Part shown: one piece after another, positions 10,875 through 41,417 of the stretch | How the letters are laid out: each line of letters begins with the position of its first letter | How positions within the stretch are numbered: position 1 is the stretch's first letter | NCBI RefSeq assembly: GCF_021134715.1 | Contig: NC_060022.1 | Location: 687,001-751,000, forward strand | Direction: 5' to 3' | Origin: Daphnia pulex | Lineage: Eukaryota > Arthropoda > Branchiopoda > Diplostraca > Daphniidae | Length of the DNA stretch: 64,000 bases | Notes under the pieces: generated by a model | Told to the model about the DNA's origin: nothing | What the model saw: the letters and a program-made list of their open reading frames with translations, nothing else | The model's database searches: none | Program-made: the position numbers and the translations under genes

Positions 10875-11312
10875 GCATGTGCGAGTTAAACAATGCAACC
10901 CACTACCCAATGAAACAAAAAGCCATGGTTTATTATTTGCGCAAATCTCCGTCAGTCAAGTTACAAATTTTTCTAATTCAACAACTCGCGAAGAATTTTG
11001 CACTAGTCTATTAGTGCAAATCGCGATTCCATGCGTTTGGTAGTTAAGAAAATGGTTGTTTAAAAACAAACAAGGGGTGTTTTGAGTAGCCAAAAAAACT
11101 CAACATTGTTTGTTTTTTAAACAACCATCTTCATAACTACCAAACACATAGGATCGCTATTTGCACCAGTAGACTAGATCCAAAATTCGACAGAAGTTGA
11201 TGAGTTTGAAAAACTTGACTGACGCAGATTTCCGCAAAACTTAACCATCGCTTTTTGTTTCATTGCCGCAGCGGTGGTGGCGGGTTGCGTTTAACTCGTA
11301 CAGAAGAAAAAC
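10875..11312. mobile_element. Foldback (MITE-like) element 2, left arm
   Basis: Imperfect inverted repeat of about 440 bp. The left half starts with a TGCGAGTTAAAC-like end followed by AATGAAACAAAAAGC and AGTCAAGTT; the right half is the complement, ending at GTTTAACTCGTAC (to about 11312). The centre (about 11075-11095) separates two AACAACCAT/ATGGTTGTT-bearing halves. The halves differ at scattered positions, so the element is older than the duplication of the arms. No coding capacity is seen. Confidence 0.55.
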
Positions 11313-11986: not shown

Positions 11987-13059
11987 TCAAATCCACGTGT
12001 AAGTTGGGCAGCAACAAAGAAGCTCAAACTCCACCAGGGTGTTAATCCTATTTAAAAAAAAAAAAAAAACAACTCAATTACTATCAAGCAACAATTTCTT
12101 AAATGACAAAACATTTTGATTGAAGTTAAGTTGAACTACAAAATCCTTCAGAATAAACGTTGCAAAGGAATGTACAGTTGGCAAGCTTTTCAAAGGTTCA
12201 ATTTCCACAACTGAAATAGGTTGAAGAGATAGGCACTAACTAAATCTGTAGTCTCACAGTTAGAAAGTTGAACATTATATTTACCTGAATTGTTCTGAAG
12301 TGTTTCTGACAAACGTGAAGCTGGTACAGGAAAAAGAGGCATTTTGGCAAAATGTTCAGGTGCTCAGGCCACATGATCAGATGAAATTGCCATGCAGAAA
12401 TTATAGGCTGTTACCAGATACCAGGGTGTTAATCCTATTTAAAAAAAAAAAAAAAAAAAACTCAATTACTATCAAGCAACAATTTTTCAAATGACAAAAC
12501 ATTTTGATCGAAGTTAAGTTAAACTACAAAATCCTTCAGAATAAATGTTGCAAAGGAATGTACAGTTGGCAAGCTTTTCAAAAGTTCAATTTCCACAACT
12601 GAAATAGGTTGAAGAGATAGGCACTAACTAAATCTGTAGTCACACAGTTAGAAAGTTGAACATTATATATACCCTGAAGTGTTTCTGACAATGTGAAGCT
12701 GGTACAGGAAAAAGAGACATTTTGGCAAAATGTTCAGCTGCTCAGGCCACACCGAGGCCACATGATCAGATAAAATTGCCATGTAGAAATTATAAGCTGT
12801 TACCAGATAAATACCTAAATTAACACAAAAATAATTATCACAGTCACATCTAAGAATCTTAAGAGAAATTACCATTATTACGAATAAAAATGTCAAGAAA
12901 GAAAAGTACGCCGTATTTACTTAATCCAATCCAACGATACGTTTTCAACATGTGGTTTCCAATCAGTGTTTTAAGAAATGGCGGAATTTCGTCTTGAGTA
13001 ACGAAGACACTCGCGCCATCTGGCAGACATAATTTTAGCCACCTAGTGATAGCCAACAT
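11987..13059 (-). CDS. Possible small gene in left arm, 113 aa, unidentified
   Basis: A candidate three-exon gene on the minus strand: 12921-13059, 12673-12814 and 11987-12047, with GT-AG junctions and phases that close to 114 codons including the stop. Exon 1 begins MLAITRWLKLCLPDG and exon 2 contains AYNFYMAILSDHV and LPKCLFFLYQLH, somewhat hydrophobic. Exon 2 is part of the 387-bp tandem duplication; the second copy of that exon has an in-frame stop and would have to be skipped. The one arm-to-arm difference, at 12669, lies in the intron-2 donor (GTATAT here, GTAAAT in the right arm). I recognise no family. The model may be a chance combination or the remnant of a longer gene. Confidence 0.3.
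12034..12809. repeat. 387-bp tandem duplication, left arm
   Basis: Two head-to-tail units start with CCAGGGTGTTAATCC at 12034 and 12421. Each contains a long A tract, the block ACAGTTGGCAAGCTTTT (12174 and 12562) and the sequence of one candidate exon. The units differ at several positions; the outer unit has an early stop where the inner unit is open. Confidence 0.85.
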
Positions 13060-13722: not shown

Positions 13723-13792
13723 TACAAATGAGCTTAAGTATCGACTTAGACCTAATTGTCAGCGCCAACAGCGGCCATCTACTGAAAATTAC
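13723..13792. other. Left junction between arm and copy A
   Basis: About 70 bp with no counterpart on the right side. It lies between the end of the left arm and the start of homology to the gene C upstream region (ACCAACCCTCTGATC at about 13791). It marks one breakpoint of the rearrangement. Confidence 0.6.
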
Positions 13793-15848
13793 CAACCCTC
13801 TGATCAACAATGATGTAAATCCCGCGTCCTGCCAGGCGCCAGCTTAATAGTTAATATCGACTGTTACCATTTTCAATTTTGAGCATTTGTACAGTGTTCA
13901 CCAAGTTGACGTTTCAGTAAGATTTTATCTCTCGTCTTTACTTTTACACGTTTAAAACTCTATTTTAAATATCGAAAAATTCGGAGAAAACATATTTTCA
14001 ATTCCAAACACTGTCGTGCAGAACTCTCCTAGCCCTTCCTAGTCAAACTTAAGAATGTCGAACATGTCGAACACGAGACTATCTACTGCATCTTCGTACA
14101 GTAAAAATAAAGCCAAGTAAGACCTTTCATTATTCGACACATCTTCATCTGTCTTAATGTGTCTTTTTATAGGAAGGATCTGCATCCATTTCATGATTCA
14201 TCTGTCTCAATCAAGAAAGAAGAGATTCCTCTGGAGATGGTGAACTCGAAAATGATTTCATTGGATTCAGCCCCCAAGTGTCTCATACAAGTAAAAGATA
14301 ACACATTCCTTTGTTATTTTATTATATTTAATTACAGATTTTGTCGAGATTGTTATAATGAAAACTATGTCCTAGATACAAGATACTCAATCCAAAAAAC
14401 AGAGAATGTCAATCAGTGGCCAAGAAAATGCAGTAAAAATGAACAAGTCAGGTAAGCATTGTGATCACACTAAGTCTTTCTGTTTCAATGTTGCTTATTA
14501 AATTGCTTTATTGAATTTTATTTTTAGGAGACTGGGAGCACCAACTGAAAGGTTCTTTCTCAAGAAAAACTGCTACTACTACTAGACAAAGTAAATTTAA
14601 TCCTAAAAAGTTTTCAAGTTTTTTTTTTAATGAAAAATTTATGCTGTTACTAGCACCAGTTGAAAAGAAGAAAGAAGTCACCACAAACTTCGATTCGGAT
14701 GATTTTTTTCAAGAGCACGAATCCTTGTCGGGAAAAATTGATAAAAAAATGAAACCACCATCAGCTAGAAATACAGAAAAAACAACCACTCAAATTCCTC
14801 CATCGGCTAAGAAAAGAGGAACGAAAAATGATGAAAGCCCATCTACAGAAACTGGTGATTCACCTGAACCAGCCGCGAAACGGCCCATTGTTGCTTCAGA
14901 ACGGAAAACTATCTCAGCTGAAGAACCAGCCACATCATCCACCGAACATGTAGACAAAGGTATTTTGAACAATTAATTTGCATGTTTTCAAAATTCATCT
15001 AGCAGCTTCTTGAAATTTGAATTCTTTTTTTCTGTAGAAAACAATACGAAAAATAATCCGCACGGGAACAAAGTTTCAACGATTGTGGATGAAGTAGTGG
15101 AAATGGATTTATCTGCAGGAGGATCGAAGAGTAAACCCCCAAAGTCTGCGGGCAAGTTGATTTAGAAATTGTGGCTTAATTAAAAAAAGTCGATTTACTG
15201 AAACCGTCTCAACCATTATAGAAATTTGAATTGTTAGACCCAATATTACGTGAAAACAAGGGTCGCAGTCGTGGTTTCGGTCGCCCAAAGAGAGATGTTT
15301 CAGCTAAATGTGTACCTGGAACAAGTTCAAGTTCTCCTACCAAGTCCTTAGGCAAATAATTGTGAAACTTTAAATTTCGTTTAACATACTTATGTTCATT
15401 TTGTAATTATAGACCACCACAGTAGAGTGGGAACTAAAACGCCTGAAGCTAAAAATGACGAAGCGCATGAGATGACATTAAAAACCGCAGACAAATCCAA
15501 AGGTTGTTTAAAACTAAATTTTCGCGAATTAAGTTTTCATGTTCATTTGTATTTGTAGAAAGGAAGTACCGTTTCTTGAGCAGCTCAGAATCTGAAGTAG
15601 GAGACGAAGAGGACGACGAAGACGATAACAATTTCCTCAGTCGTCAGAAAACCAAAAGTCCAAAAATTGCGGTTCCTAAGCCCACTTTTAACACGCCAGC
15701 CACAGTCGTTAACAAAGTTTCAGAATTGGGTACACCCAAAACTTCGAAATTCCGTCTCCTACCTGAACCGGTACTACCGCCCCGGACTCCCAGGCGAACG
15801 CTTACTTTGGCCAAAGAATCTTCAGAGTTGAGCAGCCTATTAGCATTC
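13793..15848 (+). pseudogene. Copy A: truncated, frameshifted duplicate of gene C
   Basis: It matches gene C from its upstream region (about 13793) through the exon with the TP-rich segment (TPKTSKFRLLPEP, TPRRTLTLAKES), then stops abruptly at 15848, about two thirds into the gene. The N-terminal exon starts at ATG 14055 (two extra codons by a short repeat), the next at 14173. Exon 2 has lost one G (CTCAATC where B and C have CTCAGATC), which shifts the frame. The exon near 14370-14455 also carries a small duplication. Later exons, for example 14671-14959 (DSDDFFQEHESLSGK), remain open. The acidic stretch is short (EVGDEEDDEDDN), without the expansion seen in gene C. It includes about 260 bp of the gene C upstream region, so it could still be transcribed. 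It lacks the C-terminal domain. Calling it a pseudogene rests on the frameshift and truncation. Confidence 0.85.
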
Positions 15849-17415
15849 AAGAAACGGTACTTCCTTTCTACAAATAAAAATGAACATGAAAACTTTTAAT
15901 TCGCGAAAATTTAGTTTTAAACAACAACCTTTGGATTTGTCTGCGGTTTTTAATGTCATCTCATGCGCTTCGTCATTTTTAGCTTCAGGCGTTTTAGTTT
16001 CCACTCTACTGTATATTTGCCTAAGGACTTGGTAGGAGAACTTGAACTTGTTCCAGGTACACATTCAGCTGAAACATCTCTCTTCGAGCGACTGAAACCA
16101 CGACTGCGACCATTGTTTTCACGTAATGTTGGGTCTAACAATTCAAATTTGTATAATGGTTAATAAGACGGTTTCAGTAAATAAGACTTTTTTTTTAAAT
16201 TAAGCCACAATTTCTAAATTAACTTGCCCGCAGACTTTGGGGGTTTACTCTTCGATCCTCCTGCAGATAAATCCATTTCCACTACTTCATCCACAATCGT
16301 TGAAACTTTGTTCCCGCGCGGATTATTTTTCGTAATGTTATCTACAGAAAAAAAGAATACAAATTTCAAGAAGCTGCTAGATGAATTTTGAAAACATGCA
16401 AATTAATTGTTCAAAATACCTTTGTCTACATGTTCGGTGGATGATGTGGCTGGTTCTTCACTTGAGATAGCTTTTCGGGCCGAAGCAACCATGGGCCGTT
16501 TCGCGGCTGGTTCAGGTGAATCACCAGTTTCTGTAGATCGGCTTTCGGCATTTGTCTTTCGTCTTTTTTTAGCCGATGGAGGATTTTGAGTGGTTGTTTT
16601 TTCTGTATTTCTAGCTGATGGTGGTATCGTTTTTTTATCAATTTTTCCCGACAACGATTCGGGCTCTTGAAAAAAATCATCCGAATCGAAATTTGTTCTC
16701 ACTTCTTTCTTCTGTTCAACTGGTGCTAGTAACAGCATAAATTATTCAATAAAAAAAAACTTTATTAGCTTCTTAGAATAAGATTTACTTTGTCTAGTAG
16801 TAGTAGCAGGTTTTCTTGAGAAAGAACCTTTTCAGTTGGTGCTCCCAGTCTCCTAAAAAATAAAATTCAATAAAGCAATCAATAAGCAACATTGAAACAG
16901 AAAGACTAGTAGTGTGATCACAATGCTTACCCGTCTTGTTCAATTTTGCTGCATTTTCTTGGCCACTGATTGACATTCTCGGTTTTTTGGATTGAGTATC
17001 TAAGACATAGTTTTCATTATAACAATCTTGACCAAATCTGTATTTAAACATAAAATAACAAAGGATTGTGTTATCTTTTACTTGTATGAGACACTTGAGG
17101 GCTGAATCCAATGAAATCATCTTCGAGTTCACCATCTCCATAGGCATTCCTTCTTTCTTGATCTGAGGCAGATGAATCATGAAATGGATGCAGATCCTTC
17201 CTATAAAAAGACACACATTAAGACAGATGAAGATGTGTCGAATAATGAAAGGTCTTACTTGGCTTTTATTTTTACTGAACGAAGATGCAGTAGATCTAGT
17301 CTCGTGTTCGACATTCTTAAGTTTGACTAGGAAGGGCTAGGAAAGTTCTGCACGACAGTGTTTAGAATTTGAAATATGTTTTCTCCGAATTTTCCGATAT
17401 TTAAAGAGTTTTAAA
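15849..17415 (-). pseudogene. Copy B: truncated duplicate of gene C, antisense to copy A
   Basis: Reverse-strand copy of gene C that begins at 15849 inside the exon starting ERKYRF and runs to about 17415, just upstream of the start codon (ATG near 17314). Exon 2 is intact (SASDQERRNAYGDGELEDD), but the exon with DWEHQLK has one extra A (CTGAAAAGG against CTGAAAGG in A and C), giving a frameshift and an early stop. The next large exon (16439-16725, DSDDFFQEPESLSGK) is otherwise open. B is tail-to-tail with A; A carries about 280 bp more at its 3' end. B and A differ at many positions, unlike the arms around them. Confidence 0.85.
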
Positions 17416-17532
17416 GCATCCTTACGTTGTCTAATGGGGTTGCTGATGCTGACAGTAGAACTCCAAAGACAGAAGAACTCCACCGACAATAGAACCCCAA
17501 TATTTTAAATCATTTCTAACAATTTCTTTGTC
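17416..17532. repeat. Right junction with short AGAACTCC motif array
   Basis: Sequence between copy B and the right arm with no counterpart on the left. It contains repeated AGAACTCC units followed by GACA/GACAA at irregular spacing; two more units lie just inside the arm (near 17541 and 17560). It may be local slippage at the arm's inner edge. Confidence 0.5.
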
Positions 17533-18195
17533 TGCGACAGGAGAACTCCAACGACATAAGAACTCCTCCGTTAAATTTCAGTGAATGTGAACCAGTCAGT
17601 TCACCAGCAGCAGCTGCTAATCCTGGCAAAAAGCCAGAAAACAATGTAAGAAGAAACATAAACAATTAATGATTTCAGGAGATCACAACAGGTATGGTTT
17701 AAGTCAATACAACCACAGACTAAAACTAACCACACATATTATTGAAATAGAACTATGTATCACACTGGGTAATCAAGAGTGTGCAGTCAGCATACTCAGC
17801 ACTCTTCTTTCTAAAGACGAAATGAAATCCTGGAAGATGTCTTGAGGCTGTTGTCACTTTGTCCAACAGCGTCCTGGAAGAACTACTACTTTGCATCATC
17901 ACAATTTAAAACATTCCAGCCACATTCCAGCACAGCATATCCTTTACAGATATGAGCTAACTACAACATTTGATATAAATTCACAGGTACAGGTCGTAGA
18001 TAATGTAGAAGAACTGGAAAAGAAATAGAAATTGGTGGCTCTAGTATATTCACCTTAGGGGCCTTAGGGATTAATAATTCGGCAATTTTTCCGCAATTAT
18101 GTAAAGGTTTGCTAAATTGATTTTAAAGTATTTTTGAAAAAAAAAATTTTCCTTCCGTTTCGTCCAGTCTTCCGGGTGCATAAGGAGTAAGGAAT

Positions 18196-19268
18196 ATGTT
18201 GGCTATCACTAGGTGGCTAAAATTATGTCTGCCAGATGGCGCGAGTGTCTTCGTTACTCAAGACGAAATTCCGCCATTTCTTAAAACACTGATTGGAAAC
18301 CACATGTTGAAAACGTATCGTTGGATTGGATTAAGTAAATACGGCGTACTTTTCTTTCTTGACATTTTTATTCGTAATAATGGTAATTTCTCTTAAGATT
18401 CTTAGATGTGACTGTGATAATTATTTTTGTGTTAATTTAGGTATTTATCTGGTAACAGCTTATAATTTCTACATGGCAATTTTATCTGATCATGTGGCCT
18501 CGGTGTGGCCTGAGCAGCTGAACATTTTGCCAAAATGTCTCTTTTTCCTGTACCAGCTTCACATTGTCAGAAACACTTCAGGGTAAATATAATGTTCAAC
18601 TTTCTAACTGTGTGACTACAGATTTAGTTAGTGCCTATCTCTTCAACCTATTTCAGTTGTGGAAATTGAACTTTTGAAAAGCTTGCCAACTGTACATTCC
18701 TTTGCAACATTTATTCTGAAGGATTTTGTAGTTTAACTTAACTTCGATCAAAATGTTTTGTCATTTGAAAAATTGTTGCTTGATAGTAATTGAGTTTTTT
18801 TTTTTTTTTTTTTTAAATAGGATTAACACCCTGGTATCTGGTAACAGCCTATAATTTCTGCATGGCAATTTCATCTGATCATGTGGCCTGAGCACCTGAA
18901 CATTTTGCCAAAATGCCTCTTTTTCCTGTACCAGCTTCACGTTTGTCAGAAACACTTCAGAACAATTCAGGTAAATATAATGTTCAACTTTCTAACTGTG
19001 AGACTACAGATTTAGTTAGTGCCTATCTCTTCAACCTATTTCAGTTGTGGAAATTGAACCTTTGAAAAGCTTGCCAACTGTACATTCCTTTGCAACGTTT
19101 ATTCTGAAGGATTTTGTAGTTCAACTTAACTTCAATCAAAATGTTTTGTCATTTAAGAAATTGTTGCTTGATAGTAATTGAGTTGTTTTTTTTTTTTTTT
19201 TAAATAGGATTAACACCCTGGTGGAGTTTGAGCTTCTTTGTTGCTGCCCAACTTACACGTGGATTTGA
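18196..19268 (+). CDS. Possible small gene in right arm, identical to left-arm copy
   Basis: Mirror of the model at 11987-13059: exons 18196-18334, 18441-18582 and 19208-19268. Predicted protein and exon structure are the same, and the intron-2 donor here is the more usual GTAAAT. If real, it is a two-copy gene kept identical by the palindrome. The two genes point toward the outer ends of the palindrome. Confidence 0.3.
18446..19221. repeat. 387-bp tandem duplication, right-arm mirror
   Basis: Mirror of 12034-12809. The two units, each with its long T tract, appear in the same arrangement and lengths as in the left arm. Confidence 0.85.
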
Positions 19269-19942
19269 CACAGCCAGCTGAGGGCTTTAATTCTTGTAAA
19301 TAACATAAAGTGACATTTATTCGTCTTTTCATTGACAGCATTTCCATTGATGCTGAAGATTATTTAATTCATTTCATTTTGGTTATAGGTTAAGCGTTTG
19401 TATTCGCGTAGTTGCTGTCTGATGTGGGACGTTGTTGCAGCCTATGATGGTGAAAGATTTTTCTACATCAAGTTCAATTGGCCGTTCTTTGGTGCTGATG
19501 TTGTGTTACCGAAGTTGCATCATATTTTGTTAAATTGTCATCGTGACTATTGCAGTTTACGTTTATGAGTTCAGAAGCAACAAAAACAAATATGGGACGT
19601 TTATTTCAACAAATAATAAACATGTTTCCGGGATTGGGAAAGGAAAGTGGAGGATGTTGGAGGAGGGAGGGATGATATTTGAAGTTTGGATAAAAATTCT
19701 GTTAATCTATTACCCTACCAAATAATCTCCAAACCCCACAAACATATACCTTCCAATCCTTCAAACCCCGAAAACATACACCTACTAACCCTTAAATTTA
19801 TACCCATAACCCTAAAAACCAATGTTAAACCTTAACCATGTAATATCTGTAATAAATAAAAATAAATGTTATATGGACCAATTTTTTATTTTATTTTTAA
19901 AATGTTCAAAAAATTCAATTAACAGAGCGTTCGGTTCAAGAC

Positions 19943-20380
19943 GTTTTTCTTCTGTACGAGTTAAACGCAACCCGCCACCACCGCTGCGGCAATGAAACAA
20001 AAAGCGATGGTTAAGTTTTGCGGAAATCTGCGTCAGTCAAGTTTTTCAAACTCATCAACTTCTGTCGAATTTTGGATCTAGTCTACTGGTGCAAATAGCG
20101 ATCCTATGTGTTTGGTAGTTATGAAGATGGTTGTTTAAAAAACAAACAATGTTGAGTTTTTTTGGCTACTCAAAACACCCCTTGTTTGTTTTTAAACAAC
20201 CATTTTCTTAACTACCAAACGCATGGAATCGCGATTTGCACTAATAGACTAGTGCAAAATTCTTCGCGAGTTGTTGAATTAGAAAAATTTGTAACTTGAC
20301 TGACGGAGATTTGCGCAAATAATAAACCATGGCTTTTTGTTTCATTGGGTAGTGGGTTGCATTGTTTAACTCGCACATGC
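19943..20380. mobile_element. Foldback (MITE-like) element 2, right-arm mirror
   Basis: Mirror copy of 10875-11312 in the right arm, with the same imperfect internal symmetry. It is part of the arm duplication. Confidence 0.55.
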
Positions 20381-21806
20381 TGTTATAGGATATGTCTACG
20401 GCCCCCAGAGATATTTATCTGGACCGAGAAGAAGAGAGAAGTACGAGGCAAGTTTTACTGGGGAGATGTAGTCATACTAGGCTTCCGGGTTAGACTCATG
20501 ACCCTCCAAAAGTTTTCATCGGATCATGCGCCTTCCAAGTCCCCGTTCGACCAGAGCCCTCCCCTCCTCCTGGTTTCACAGCGGGTGAGTGACCACCGGC
20601 GGGCGTTGGTTAGTGGTTAGTTAGGGAAACGGGGCCACAGAAAAGAAGGGAGCCCAAATATGCACTTGTAATTGAATCTAACTACACAATTTATCAGTCT
20701 TCAATTACAGCATTCTCGCGTCGGTTTTCACCAATGGATGAAGTCCATGATCAGTAGCGAAGGATTACTCTGTAAGCAGAATGAACATTTATTTGGATGG
20801 CAATAATATTCAAGCAAGATTGTAGCGACATAAAGTAATACCTCGTAAAGAAGTCAATAAGGAGGATTCAAGGGTAGCATCCAACGGGTCAGCAAGCAAC
20901 GGACCTTGTTGACTTTCTTGAAATGACAGGACTTTTCATAAAGTCTGCCATGCAAATTTAGAAACCAACAGTTTAGAATCTGTAAACAAAAAAAATAAAG
21001 AAAAACAAGTCACCTTGTTTATAGTTTGTGTCCTCAATGTGCTTGACGTCTATGATGTAATTAAGAATAATTAAACAGTTATCAGTATACACTTGAAATT
21101 GTCTCTGAAACATTAGACGGAGTGGGGATCAATACTTAAAATACATATTAGATTATTAGACTGTAAGGGAAAAAGTTCAGTGACATGAGAAGTGAACTTA
21201 CACATGAAACCCCTGATCGATCAGTTATCCAGATGATAAGGTTCTCTAGATGATGGAATGAGAGATTGTTCCATGCTGGGGTTGGTGATCTAGCAAGTCT
21301 AATACACACAGCAGATAATTATGTTGAATCCTAATAAAAGATGAGAAGAATATGTTCCAGCAATTCTGTAATAAAGCTAGTGTTGGTCATTACCTGCATC
21401 ATGTTGATGGCACATTCAGTAGAATACAATGATTTTGAACAAAATAGTTGACAGTAGGCTGCACGACTCTTTTACGTTTCCTCCTGTAAGTTGATGAGAA
21501 ACGTTAAGGTTATCCAACATATACACGGAAAAGAACACATCACCGACAAGTTACAAACAAAATCACTCGAATTTACCTATGAATTCATTGGTATTTGTTT
21601 ATTTCGGTATTTGTTTAGAAAAATAGCGTAACTTTTGACAGCAAACCGACATTAGCCCAGGACTGACACAATCAACACGCCATCTATTTGACACGTCTCA
21701 AAACTCAGTATTTGAAGGAAGGACTGGTCTTAAGATACTCACAAAACTTGAAAAGTGCATTTTTGTTTGCTAAAACTTAGCACTCAATCCTTAGAACTGT
21801 ACATAG

Positions 21807-22216
21807 AACAAAGCTCACTTGCTAGTTTCATGCAAATTTTCCGGAAGTAAACCGGAAGTACGCGATAGCGCCTCAACCATTGAGCTGACGTCAAATTAAA
21901 CCAAAATTCGTAATCTCCATAAAATTTGGGGTCAATTGGCTACACTTTAAACAAAATCCAACACTGTATCAAAATCGAGAATTTTCCTGAACTATATTAT
22001 AGTTCAGTATTCGTAATAAGTTCAGGAAAATTTACGATTTTGGACGATTTTCCGATATTTTGAACTGATACTTAAAATCGACCCCAAATTTGATGAGAAT
22101 CACGAATATTTGGATCTTTTTGGCGTCAGACGAATATTTACACAACTATTAACGAATTTAGAAACCGGAAGTAGACACAAAAGCAGTTATCGAAAATTTA
22201 ACAAGTGAGCTTTGTT
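21807..22216. mobile_element. Foldback (MITE-like) element 1, right-arm mirror
   Basis: Mirror copy of the element at 9039-9448, with the same terminal repeats (21807-21821 and 22202-22216). It was carried along with the arm and is not an independent insertion. Confidence 0.6.
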
Positions 22217-23207
22217 GGTGGAATAGTTATCGTCAGTTATCACTAAAAAATTACCACACAACCGTCAAACGTTTACAATGATGTGCAAAGTAACTGAAAC
22301 TGACTAATTTGACAGCTGAAGATTGTCAAAGGCGTTGATAGGAAAAAGAAACGTTTAAGTAATACTTCGCTTGCGACTCGCAAGAAGGGCCTGATTTAGG
22401 AATTATTACTCAGACACAAAGTTTGAAGATTATAAGAAGATATTACATAAATATTACAAAGTAGTCACAGTTGGCAAGCTTTTCGAATATTACAAAAATG
22501 TAGTTCCAACCAATGGATAATTAACTAAGTTAAACCACATTTCTCGTGTACACTTAACTGAAAATTCTACAACAGAGAGGTCAAGTGTTTAATGAATGCA
22601 CCAGAAGCAAGTTTTAGTCACAGGAATTTTCGCATATTTACTTTATCTACAACAGCATAATTTCAATTTGTCACACCTGAAGACAAATGATAAACAAAAG
22701 ATGTGGACAAAGTAGTTAATTTGGATTCTTAGCTAGAAGTTTCCTGTCCTCACATGATCTTTATTACACAATCAGTCTTGGAACACACACAAACAGTCAG
22801 TCATGATTTGTAGGATGCCACTGGTTTCCTTTTCCAACAGTGACTGGTTACATTAAATTTCTTTCTTTGGGTTCACAAGCTCTTACCTGTTTAAATGAAG
22901 AAAAATCCAAATCTTGACGCGTGGTACAGCTCAGGTGGGCAACCGAGAAACAAGAGAAAACTTAATGAGAACGGGCATTTTCGCAATTACCGATTTAGTT
23001 TCTTTCACTTTTTAGCACATGCAGAAATAACATCTATTAACCAACTTGTCTATAACTATAACTAACGATGAAGGTGAACGAACGAAAATTCTGACGTTTT
23101 GGGGGAACAAGCGAGCAGACGTACTTTCGGGGAAACTGTCAAGCAGCGTTGCCATTTTATGAAAATCGACAGCCAAATAAAATGTTTTTTTTTTTTCAAA
23201 ACACGAT

Positions 23208-23430: not shown

Positions 23431-24169
23431 TTAGTCTTGGCGAGTGAATTTACGACGTGTCATTATCCCAGATTCGATAACCAAATAGACTTGTTCCAAA
23501 TTCTTCTCACCCCAGCGAATATTGTTGCGGATGACCTCCAGAATCCTGTCCGTGAAAGTTCGATTGAGTTTCTTGTCTTTATTTTCCAGGTCGGACAAAA
23601 TCCGGGACATCTTTTTCGTGACGAATAAATCACATAAAGAAAAGCGGAATTGGGTATATTTCAAACCAATCAGATGCTCAACTGAATGAACAATTTACCT
23701 CTTTCAGTTCGTCTGGTGTACTCAGAAATTTGGCGGCGGAGGTGAGAAGCTTCAAATTATCGCCAGACCTTCTAAAACCAAAACTAAAAGTCCACGTAAA
23801 TCGAAATTAAAAAAAAAAACCGACGTATTAAAATTCTAAAATTTAATGTGTTTCTACTGTCGCCCTAGGATCTCCCAGTTGGTCGCCAAAAAGTTCAACA
23901 CCATGGAACGAGCGACGTGATTTTCCGTCATTTTCTCAATGGTGGCGAACGTTTCGTGCGGGTCCTGTTCGATTGTCGGCGAAAACACGCGCGAAAGAAG
24001 CTGTTTCAAACGATCACGATCTTGACTGCAACTCATGGCCGATAAAATCTTTGTCCGCTGTGACGACCACATGTCGCAAAGACTAGCTCGCCACGCCCAG
24101 TTCCATTCTTCCTTACCACCGTAGCGAATCACCGCACACCAATTGCGCTCCAAATGTTCTGTCATTGCC
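23431..24169 (-). pseudogene. C-terminal fragment of an M1 aminopeptidase (APN/ERAP1-C domain)
   Basis: Exons 23858-24169, 23699-23771 and 23431-23610 join in frame. They read the end of the ERAP1-like C-terminal domain of M1 zinc aminopeptidases: NWCAVIRYGGKEEWNWAW, LSAMSCSQDRDRLKQLL, FLATNWEILG, and finally ILEVIRNNIRWGEKN near the C-terminus. The catalytic N-terminal part (GAMEN and HExxH) was not seen upstream on this strand. The 24169 acceptor implies a missing upstream exon, and the sequence just upstream ends in another frame with a stop (24211). It is either a truncated duplicate or the stranded end of a rearranged gene. It lies about 220 bp from the palindrome's outer edge, so the rearrangement may have removed the rest. 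Confidence 0.7.
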
Positions 24170-24210
24170 CTGAATTGTACGTAGGACCATTTTAAACGGT
24201 TCAATTCAAC

Positions 24211-36470: not shown

Positions 36471-39276
36471 TTAGAACGTTTCGAAAAGTACAAATGAGGC
36501 GACTTGTTCCCCTGTGTTGACCACGTGAAGAATACCCGCTTTAAGGTCAACAAGTCTCGTAGACGAGTTGAGTAAAATGCGACTTGGAACATGGGGATTG
36601 CTTCTAAATTCGACGCTTCCTTTGAGTCGCACGACCTGTATAACAAAAAATTTTTTAAATAAAGATTTAAATCAGTTACACCAGTTAAAGTTACCATTAT
36701 CGGGTTATTAATTTTCAGAGCAAAAACAATTTTTGGCAGTAGATGAACCAACGACATGCTGTGTTCAGCGTTAGACAGTTGCTGTACTCGTACAGGATCG
36801 CCGGGTGAGGCCAAATAAAGATTGAATTGCGTCCGTAGATGACTGCGGTTTGGCACCGGAAGTGTAGACGGATCAATGGCGGAACTTAATGGGGCTTGGT
36901 TCGTTGAATTCGCAGATCGGAGCATAGTTCTTTTCAGTACTTCTTCAATAAGTCCAGAATCTAAATCCAATGAATACTTTGACATACAATTCAAATTTTA
37001 AATGAACTATAAAAAAAAAATACCATCCCCATGGGCATAGATGTCGTTTTCGAGATCGTTCAACTGTTGCGAGGATTTTACAGGGGATTGGAGTCGTTTA
37101 GTTGACGACTGTTTCTTTGAAGAATCGGGGAATCTTCTTCTCTTTGACAAAGGAGTTTCCTCGCTTGATTCTTCTAAAGACAAAACAGTTTGTTTGTAAA
37201 TAAACAAAAGAGTGTGCACTGCGAGGCAAATTTTGTTTAAAATTCAGTTATCATTACCGTTTGCACGAGATGTTGAAGGCCTAATAAGTGGAGTTTCCTT
37301 TTGCGATCTCTTGTGCAGTTCTGCATTTGCAACATCTTCTGGAATGCTAATAGACTGCTCAACTCTATTCGGTGAAGATTCCTTGACCAAAGTAAGCGTT
37401 CGCCTGGGAGTCCGGGGCGGTGGTACCGGTTCGGGTAGGAAACGGAATTTCGAAGTTTTGGGTGTACCCAATTCTGAAACTTTGTTAGCGACTGAGGCTG
37501 GCGTTTTTAAAGTGGCAGAAGGAACCGAAATTTTATGACTTTTTGTTTTCTGAGGACTGAGAAAAATGTTATCGTCTTCGCCATCATCTTCGTCGTGCTC
37601 TTCGTCTTCCACTTTGTCGTCCTCTTCGTCTTCCACTTTGTCGTCCTCTTCGTCTTCCACTTTGTCGTCCTCTTCGTCCCCAACTTCGTCCCCAACTTCG
37701 TCCTCCACTTCGTCCTCCACTTCGTCCTCTACTTCGTCCTCTACTTCAGATTCTGAGCTGCTCAAGAAACGGTACTTCCTTTCTACAAATACAAATGAAC
37801 ATGAAAACTTTTAATTCGCGAAAATTTAGTTTTAAACAACAACCTTTGGATTTGTCTGCGGTTTTTAAGGTCATCCTATGCGCTTCGTCATTTTTAGCTT
37901 CAGACTTTTTAGTTTCCACTCTACTGTGGTTGTCTATGATTACAAAATAAACATAATTATGTAAAACGAAATTTAAAGTTTCACAAATATTTACCTAAGG
38001 ACTTGGTAGGAGAACTTGAACTTTGTCTCTTTGGTCGACCGATACCACGACTGCGACCCTTGTTTTCACGTAATGTTGGGTCTAACAATTCAAATTTGTA
38101 TAATGGTTAATAAGACAGTTTCAGTAAATAAGACTTTTTTTTTTAATTAAGCCACAATTTCTAAATTAACTTGCCCGTAGACTTTGTGGGTTTACTTTTC
38201 GATCCTCCTGCAGACAAATCCGTTTCCACTACTTCATCCACAATTGTTGAAACTTTGTTCCCGCGCGGATTTTTTTTCGTAATGTTATCTACAGAAAAAA
38301 AGAATTCAAATTTCAAGAAGCTGCTAGATGAATTTTGAAAACATGCAAATTAATTGTTCAAAATACCTTTGTCTAAATGTTCGGTGGATGACGTGGCTGG
38401 TTCTTCAGCTGAGATAGTTTTCCGTTCTGAAGCAACCATGGGCCGTTTCGCGGCTGGTTCAGGTGAATCACCAGTTTCTGTAGATCGGCTTTCGGCATTT
38501 GTCTTTCCTCTTTTTTTAGCCGATGGAGGATTTTTAGTGGTTGCTTTTACCTTATTTCTAGCTGATGGTCCTGGTTTCGTTTTTTTATCAATTTTTCCCG
38601 ACAAGGATTCGGGCTCTTGAAAAAAATCATCCGAATCGGAATTTGTTCTCAATTTTTTCTTCTTTTCAATTGGTGCTAGTAACAGCATAAATTTTTCAAT
38701 AAAAAAAAAACTTTATTAGCTTCTTAGAATAAGATTTACTTTGTCTAGTAGTAGTAGCAGGTTTTCTTGAGAAAGAACCTTTCAGTTGGTGCTCCCGGTC
38801 TCCTAAAAATAAAATTCGATAAAGCAATTCAATACGCAACATTGAAACAGAAACATTAGTGTGATCACAATTCACAATGATGCTTACCTGTCTTGTTCAA
38901 TTTTGCTGCATTTTCTTGGCCACTGATTGACATTCTCTGTTTTTGGGATTGAGTAGTATCTAAGAAATAGTTTTCATTATAACAATCTTGACAAAATCTG
39001 TATTTAAACATAATTAAATAACAAAGGAATGTGTTATCTTTTACTTGTATGAGACACTTGAGGGCTGAATCCAATGAAATCATCTTCGACTTCATCATCT
39101 CCAGAGGCATCACTTCTTTCTTGATCTGAGGCAGATGAATCATAAAATGGATGCAGATCCTTCCTATTAAAAGACACACACATTAAGACAGATGAAGATG
39201 TGTCGAATAATGAAAGGTCTTACTTGGCTTTATTTTTACTGTACGAAGATGCAGTAGATAGTCTCGTGTTCGACAT
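36471..39276 (-). CDS. Gene C: unidentified nuclear-type protein, 663 aa, probable parent of copies A and B
   Basis: Twelve exons close in frame: 39224-39276, 39045-39163, 38888-38959, 38740-38802, 38367-38675, 38196-38288, 37995-38081, 37844-37933, 37258-37782, 37024-37173, 36695-36960 and 36471-36635. Most of the protein is disordered, Ser/Thr/Lys-rich with many SP/TP sites and basic patches (SKRRRFPDSSKKQ), consistent with a nuclear protein. An acidic repeat tract lies near residues 310-360. The last two exons are ordered-looking: LYLASPGDPVRVQQL, LVHLLPKIVFALKINNPIM, and a beta-rich end, LKAGILHVVNTGEQVASFVL. That end resembles a cupin barrel such as the one closing CENP-C/Mif2, but no CENP-C motif (basic, then YW) was found, so this is a weak guess. 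The exon 6 donor (AAAA|GTAAAC) was chosen because it alone keeps the frame; copy A has an alternative acceptor that gene C lacks. Confidence 0.7.
37590..37748. repeat. In-frame acidic minisatellite in gene C
   Basis: Three tandem units of 24 nt (encoding EEDDKVED on the minus strand) followed by 12-nt units (EVED or EVGD). Copy A has only one short version here, so the array either expanded in gene C after the duplication or shrank in copy A. All unit lengths are multiples of three and keep the frame. Confidence 0.85.
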
Positions 39277-41417
39277 TCTTAAGTTTGACTAGGAAGGGCT
39301 AGGAAAGTTCTGCACGACAGTGTTTGGAATGTGAAATATGTTTTCTCCGAATTTTCCGATATTTAAAGAGTTTTAAAACGTGTAAAAGTAAAGACGAGAG
39401 ATGAAATCTTACTGAAACTTCCAACTTGGCGAACACTGTACAAATGCTCAAAAATTGCCAATGGTAACAGTTGACATTAACTATTATTAAGCTGTCACCT
39501 GGCGGGATTTATTTACATCCCGCTATTATTGTTCATTGTTGGGATCAGAGGGCTGGGATTGTGCTTTTTCGAATCGCGTAAGCAGCGCCACCACCTACCG
39601 CAACGTTGTGACTTGTGTCGTATTATATATTTAACGCTGATCTTCTGTCAGTGGTCAGCTCGGGTCAGCTTCTGTTATCCGAATTACGAAAAGCTAATAA
39701 ACTCCCAAGTCAACATTAAATATCGCCATAATATTTTTATTTTTTTTAGGATAGGTCACTGGCGACGTTACTTAATAACATCAAAAAGAAAATTGCCTGT
39801 GCTTCAATTTATGTATACGTCGAAGCAAAAAGATTTGTGTCTGTCAGACTGTCACTTTACATCCATCGGAAATCATTCTTAATAATAATGTGAAAGCGAA
39901 AAAAAAAGTAAACCAGAGACCCGAAACTAGGACTTGGCTACATCGATAACCTAGCTGCATCGAATTTTGGTTGACACAATCAGAATTTAGGACATCCAGC
40001 GCAACATTTGCCACACGAAATAATAAATTAAAAAAAACTCGTTTTGAAGCATCGGCGTAAATACAAGAGCATCTTTGTGACTGCAAAGTGCAATAACGTT
40101 GCCAATACATTTGTAAAGGATACTGTAATTGCGTCTAGTACAAGCGCGTCAACAAACTCTTGACGAGCACTTGTATATAGGGGATGAGTTCATTTAGGCT
40201 TATTCATTGAGACCACCACCTGTATGTTCAACAGCATCAGCATTTTTTTGTATTAGAAATTTGAAGCCACAAAAAGGATTTGTTGACGAAAGAAAAGAAA
40301 GCACGTCGACAATAAGAGAAAGTTCCAAGATGTGAAATGTTCCACATGTTTTTATAATCCAATAGCTATTATTTAAAAAGTCTGCATATTTTCGCACGCG
40401 AGAAATTCTTGTCTTTAAAAAAATATATTACATTTCCCATTTTTTCCCGTTCCGCCTTTAAAAATATACAGTTATGGAGGAAACGCAGCGAAGGAGAAGA
40501 ATTCGACAAGACACACACTTATGTAAATTCTGATGGTCTACCGTGTCGGATTTTTTTTTATGTGGTCGTAACGAATAGCTCATCAATCGGTATTTATTTA
40601 TTTATTTTATTTTTCTTTGACCCCTTTCATTCAATCAAAATCTAGGCCACATTCTCTATTTCGATGAATAGATTCTCAATCAGCGGCGATCACACACCTA
40701 GAAAGTCTTTGGACGACAGCAACAGGGTACCGGTATACTATTTTTCAATGCTTTTATATACTTAAACGACTATCGAGAACGAATATAATACAGGTCGCGC
40801 AATGAAGACTTGTTTTGCGCATTCGACCAACGAACGGATTTTTTTTTTTTTTTTTTTTTTGTTAGGCACATGTTATTTAGACGATTGTTTGGTTTTAAGG
40901 TCGTTGATTCAACTTCTGTGAACCTGTTTTTGTGTGTTCCAGTTTATATTTACAGGATATCATACTCGTCTAAATGCATCCGACCCACTAAATAATGCAG
41001 TTGTAATTTTTTTTCGTTTCGGGTTTCGCCAAGTACATTAGACACACGCGTATAGAAATTCTCCCAAATTCACGTTTTGTCGCTATGCATATTAGATGCG
41101 ATGATTTTCTGTATAGGTCAAGTTATTGTCATTATCGACAGCCCCCCCCCCCCCCCCCCAAAAAAAAAAAAAAAAAAACGTAATTTAGTTCATGGGTATT
41201 GTATTCACAGCCTAGTGCCAGGCATGACAGACGTCACGTCACATGAACGCCGCACACGGGCATATAACAACAACAACAAAAAAGTATAAAGAGCTACATT
41301 TAGGCATTGACGAGCTGGAAAGGTAAGGGTGTCGTATGCCTAAATCAAGTTCATTCAAAAACTGGTTGGCTCAGCCATCAACTAGGAAATGAAGCTTGCC
41401 AATGTGTTGCACGGCGT
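39277..41417. other. Intergenic region with homopolymer tracts
   Basis: The first 260 bp upstream of gene C (to about 39545) are shared with the upstream part of copy A, so they probably contain the gene C promoter. The rest has no recognised exon. It holds a T tract near 40840 and a C tract joined to an A tract at 41142-41178. The last part is 3' UTR of the collagen-like gene. Confidence 0.4.
41142..41178. repeat. Adjacent poly-C and poly-A tracts
   Basis: About 18 C followed directly by about 19 A. Such tracts are error-prone in sequencing, so the exact length is uncertain. Confidence 0.75.

Follow-up and report, generated by a model that had tools for sequence, protein, structure and literature searches.

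Does a pair of partial gene copies lying tail to tail in the genome of Daphnia pulex constitute a source of hairpin RNA directed against the gene from which both were copied, as a first-pass annotation of the locus had proposed? The window analyzed here is a stretch of 64,000 nucleotides on contig C6 (7,255,302 bases) of a 133.19-Mb genome assembled in 13 contigs. It contains the two copies, A and B, and about 20 kb away from them the parent gene, C.

Gene C and its inverted partial copies

13827..15848, + strand: copy A, covering gene C from exon 1 into part of exon 9, introns included, plus 228 bases 5′ of the ATG
15849..17415, − strand: copy B, inverted, covering gene C exons 1 to the start of 9, with a +1 frameshift in exon 4
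15580..15846, + strand: loop, the portion of A exon 9 that is absent from B; the A–B alignment stops at 15579 and resumes at 15847
36471..39276, − strand: gene C, the parent copy, with 12 coding exons in our own model, 676 aa without a stop, and 95% identity to the D. pulex NCBI protein P0001

BLASTN alignment of A with B at 91.8% identity over 1425 columns, with a further 166 columns at 95.8%, bears out the proposed tail-to-tail arrangement, in which A (+) and B (−) meet at 15848/15849. A 1.4-kb inverted repeat at 92% identity is not a product of chance. The claimed homology of both copies to gene C also holds, as A matches C at 89.6% over 1832 columns (C 39507–37720 at 89.6% and C 37594–37337 at 87.6%) and B matches it at 90.4% over 1628 columns (C 37762–39377; all BLASTN). 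The loop described between the two copies is present, but its size is about 267 nt instead of the 280 nt first given, and the upstream region said to be retained by A was recovered as the 228 bases before its ATG, which match C. No part of the window matches an Rfam family at gathering scores.

About 2 bases, read by eye, are common to both sides of the join, which is consistent with a template switch; the pair, an inverted partial duplication of C, probably arose by copying with a switch of template at exon 9. Origin of B by simple doubling of an “arm + A” unit was considered and rejected, since the outer ends of the copies differ (C 39507 vs. C 39377) and the grouping of A with B is unclear.

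The parent gene contains no domain detected in a Pfam search, and the six relatives among the matches listed come exclusively from Daphnia. The sole D. pulicaria protein listed is 97.6% identical to a relative of C on contig C10 (538 columns), compared with 59.9% to C itself (484 columns). Exact splicing failed for NCBI protein P0001 in the window and for P0004 in the C10 stretch; comparisons of C with the C10 gene were made with our own 12-exon model and P0003. An acidic repeat array in C exon 9 (37575–37747) is expanded relative to A and the C10 gene. The C10 relative (L040 5812–8074) contains tandem units approximately 417 bases apart that hold exons and give rise to repeated protein blocks.

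A predicted transcript across the join and its capacity to fold

14055..16032, + strand: coding exons of NCBI protein P0006, an exact spliced translation of the window in ten exons, followed by TAG
14055–14116, 14173–14290, 14376–14451, 14528–14590, 14654–14959, + strand: P0006 exons 1–5, from the spliced translation
15038–15151, 15238–15351, 15413–15502, 15559–15856, 15915–16032, + strand: P0006 exons 6–10, from the spliced translation

The transcript that had been envisaged, running from sense A through the join into antisense B, exists as a predicted NCBI gene model, P0006, whose ten-exon translation is reproduced exactly across the join; a junction-crossing transcript is therefore already predicted, and copy A is not plainly dead. 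P0006 is a protein of 453 aa named “nucleolar and coiled-body phosphoprotein 1-like isoform X2” and belongs to a cluster of 2 sequences. Its exon 9 spans the A/B join, and its last intron (15857–15914) and exon 10 are located in antisense B, with canonical splice signals used in the model. Labels of the “isoform X2” kind denote computed models that are often aided by RNA-seq. The promoter region copied along with A would, as the gene model predicts, drive transcription of sense A, the join, and antisense B in that order.

This model bears on two further claims of the first-pass annotation, namely that both copies are frameshifted and that protein is not the likely product. The first is correct only in part: in B the +1 shift in exon 4 leads to a stop, but A, which carries a 1-base deletion in exon 2 relative to C, retains a 453-aa frame open through its exons, corresponds to an NCBI protein, and may encode one. 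NCBI protein searches, which return 90%-identity clusters inside which a member could be hidden, yielded no separate protein for B.

In computed folds of the native sequence, 1479 of 1601 base pairs in the unspliced region form between A and B, with a longest helix of 119, and 662 of 917 do so in an assumed spliced precursor (13900–16880). The inverted repeat required for a long RNA stem is thus present, and the stem of about 1.4 kb first suggested is possible given both the unspliced fold and the 1425 aligned columns; computation predicts that the RNA would fold back into a stem of approximately 1.4–1.6 kb containing mismatches.

The stem also matches gene C sufficiently for siRNAs. Distinct 21-mers shared with the C coding model number 243 of 2002 in A and 226 of 1547 in B, 82 being common to all three, and those of A and B together span 796 of approximately 2065 nt in that model, a length that takes exon 3 as longer than in the 12-exon model. 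The 10-kb C10 stretch containing the relative of C shares only 14 (A) and 40 (B) 21-mers, which would leave gene C as the principal target. Machinery for siRNAs is present: the genome contains 20 RNase III domain matches and 35 Piwi domain matches, 32 of the latter above the cut-off, counted exon by exon and not as genes, and Dicer-2 is described as duplicated in Daphnia in passages of PMC4833078. Daphnia Dicer-2 should be able to cut the stem RNA into siRNAs, many of them perfectly matching gene C. In known hpRNA precursors the duplexed arms are depleted of reads, according to parts of PMC10317233.

Sequence change in the copies and in gene C

In order to place the copies relative to each other and to the parent, differences were counted at 1529 sites present in all three sequences. 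They are near-star in pattern (A–B 90, A–C 97, B–C 76), with A the odd one out at 55 sites, B at 34, and C at 41, and with all three differing at 1, as if C had been copied into both arms at about one time. With the C10 gene as outgroup, derived states at 1344 sites are shared by B and C at 12, by A and B at 6, and by A and C at 5. The two pieces of the alignment give different counts for these pairs in the same order (12, 2, and 4 in the 5′ piece; 0, 4, and 1 in the 3′ piece). Maintenance of A–B pairing would be expected to leave an excess of derived changes common to A and B, and none is observed at these 1344 sites (6 vs. 12 and 5).

Estimates of dN/dS, with the shifted stretch of A read in the frame of C, are 0.99 (0.61–1.71) for A–C, 0.87 (0.49–1.8) for B–C, and 0.73 for A–B, compared with 0.71 (0.57–0.90) for C and the C10 gene. 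The match to C is no better conserved in exons than in introns for either copy: differences between B and C amount to 61/955 in exons and 13/488 in introns (p = 0.002, exons more divergent), and those between A and C to 89/1227 and 35/531 (p = 0.69). On the C branch, exon changes exceed intron changes (32/946 vs. 7/474, p = 0.04), while the A branch leans in the opposite direction (28/946 vs. 23/474, p = 0.09) and the B branch is not significant. These counts give at most a weak hint that gene C may be evolving fast. The supporting, although not defining, sign of an hpRNA locus, selection on pairing or on target match, was not seen in these comparisons. If siRNAs are made, gene C would be a by-product target, with no sign of selection keeping the locus for silencing.

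We tentatively favor, at somewhat less than even confidence, the reading that this is a young inverted duplication of C, probably transcribed across the join, whose fold-back RNA could serve as a Dicer substrate, with gene C possibly affected. On paper the locus would work like an hpRNA locus and is a candidate for one. As a prediction the hairpin itself is fair; it gains from the NCBI model and loses from the absent selective signature.

A quite plausible competing account, to which we assign the second place, is that the pair is inert debris, two pseudogenes caught within a palindrome's loop, transcribed little or not at all and without a role. It agrees with dN/dS values near 0.9 to 1 against C, with exons conserved no more than introns, with the lack of excess A–B derived sites, and with the frameshift in B, but it leaves the open 453-aa frame of A, its usable splice sites, and the predicted NCBI gene unaccounted for. 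If the locus is inert, it remains a warning that the gene predicted there by NCBI results from reading through an inverted duplication.

That A is instead a new chimeric protein gene, with the hairpin incidental, appears unlikely. Its product would be a shortened C with approximately 28 residues in another frame and approximately 39 residues from antisense B; the exactly reproduced frame, the named isoform, and the cluster of 2 sequences argue for such a gene, and the A–C dN/dS near 1 argues against it, although this test of A is weak because C and its C10 relative also reach only 0.71.

A Drosophila setting for the candidate hairpin locus was considered and rejected, as the organism is Daphnia pulex. 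The locus resembles hp-Nmy, hp-Tmy, and hp-ODox1 of Drosophila simulans, as presented in portions of PMC10317233, in its gene-homologous inverted repeat, its spliced precursor (predicted here), and its young, fast-changing setting; the arms of hp-ODox1 are reported there to match a parent-gene exon over about 200 bp. Unlike those loci, it is situated approximately 20 kb from its parent, inside a larger palindrome and without a known sex-chromosome conflict, and is known here from sequence alone. Mu killer of maize, as described in sections of PMC3440606, is likewise a partial inverted gene duplication for which a long hairpin RNA from read-through transcription was proposed, but it is a plant locus that silences a transposase gene, whereas the Daphnia parent is devoid of Pfam domains and copy A took the promoter region along with it. 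If the predicted transcript is produced and processed by Dicer, the locus would count as a candidate source of hairpin siRNAs in a crustacean, lying very near its parent gene, and would offer a chance to watch the beginnings of such loci.

The enclosing palindrome and its relatives in the genome

8054..13728, + strand: left arm of the outer palindrome, 99.8% identical to the right arm over 5681 columns, with 5664 bases identical
17527..23207, − strand: right arm of the outer palindrome, from the alignment to the left arm
13729..13790, + strand: 62-base dispersed repeat between the left arm and A, with at least 26 further copies aligning to all 62 bases of the query or most of them
17446..17576, + strand: another dispersed repeat, on the right-arm side of B and extending into that arm; known from the best 40 of 166 candidates scored
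9003..11968, + strand: core of the arm repeat, with matches on at least 10 contigs

Mirror symmetry had been thought to be bounded at 13.8 and 17.4 kb, but further arms start approximately 100 bases outside these limits, and the A/B pair occupies the loop of this outer palindrome. The outer arms are identical or nearly so, in contrast to the 8% difference between A and B, which indicates that the process homogenizing the arms does not maintain pairing inside the loop. Copies of the 62-base repeat are found on many contigs, one of them (C10:5436155–5436216) a short way upstream of the relative of C on C10, whose model starts near 5436244.

Searches with two short probes and the whole arm, in which 40 of 641, 40 of 308, and 27 of 1206 candidates, respectively, were scored, give repeat counts that are lower bounds biased to copies resembling those of the window. 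A family confined to C6 was considered and rejected: 25 of the 27 scored whole-arm candidates (30 of 32 hits compiled) lie on C6, but the short probes reach nine other contigs. Among 77 merged loci, 17 pairs of opposite-strand neighbors lie within 16 kb of each other, all in the order + then − and none − then +, where the merging of same-strand neighbors closer than 4.5 kb leaves that class undercounted (the whole-arm search has one). The two probes gave 9 and 6 pairs in the + then − order, against means of 0.2 and 0.45 under random placement, in which some contig sizes were assumed and the controls are the two single probes, not the merged set.

Ten palindromes were read, some of them partly covered. 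Their arms are 92.1–99.98% alike, with nine of the ten at 97.7% or above, their spacers range from about 160 bases to 3.8 kb, and only the palindrome described here contains gene C sequence in its spacer. The window's arm is at most 93% identical to other loci for matches over 1 kb, and arms are more alike within palindromes than between them, as expected under conversion, with the exception of P3129 and P3280, whose arms are 97.8–100% alike between the two palindromes. No transposase was detected in a Pfam search of ten ORFs, and the repeat unit may either be a transposon or have arisen by segmental duplication accompanied by arm-to-arm conversion.

An artefact of assembly, in which fold-back reads or arm-equalizing polishing produced a false palindrome, is highly improbable: although mis-mapped polishing reads could yield 100% identity over 5664 bases, A and B are about 8% apart with different outer ends and so are not a product of fold-back reads, and the ten palindromes range from 92.1 to 99.98% without being uniformly at 100%.

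A broader proposal can be made for the family, improbable on present evidence: that in D. pulex palindromes of fixed polarity are seeded by a dispersed repeat of approximately 3 kb, are kept near-identical in their arms, and trap genes and gene pieces, thereby supplying hairpin RNA loci naturally against nearby genes, A/B against a fast-evolving gene C having been caught early, before selection. Arms of kilobase length and very high identity that flank a spacer are likewise known from Caenorhabditis, where long near-perfect inverted repeats occur with pairs of homologous genes (PMC1803023), and from Y-chromosome palindromes (PMC7953838). The Daphnia case differs in that many palindromes share one dispersed repeat in their arms, with constant polarity. 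PMC7953838 presents a palindrome screen that omitted D. pulex, and among titles and abstract openings in the literature we found no description of such a locus or of palindromes in Daphnia. The family would make the formation of palindromes and arm-to-arm conversion open to study in an animal for which both clonal and sexual culture are possible.

Arms of different palindromes extend outward into different gene pieces. The outward piece of C4_2012 contains a frame matching DUF4789 slightly below the Pfam cut-off, and that of P1138 contains an aminopeptidase-like frame near-identical to one in the window's right flank, where a neighboring frame matches ERAP1_C at 2e-14. These aminopeptidase-like exons (ERAP1_C; 23431–24210, − strand) are absent from the left flank, so the arm ends differ from those of P1138. 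Each arm of the window's palindrome also carries a tandem 388-base unit (12033–12751 and 18504–19222) that resembles, by eye, a duplicated exon between splice signals, as well as a shorter inverted repeat of approximately 425 bases (10878–11302) that is present in the other repeat copies read.
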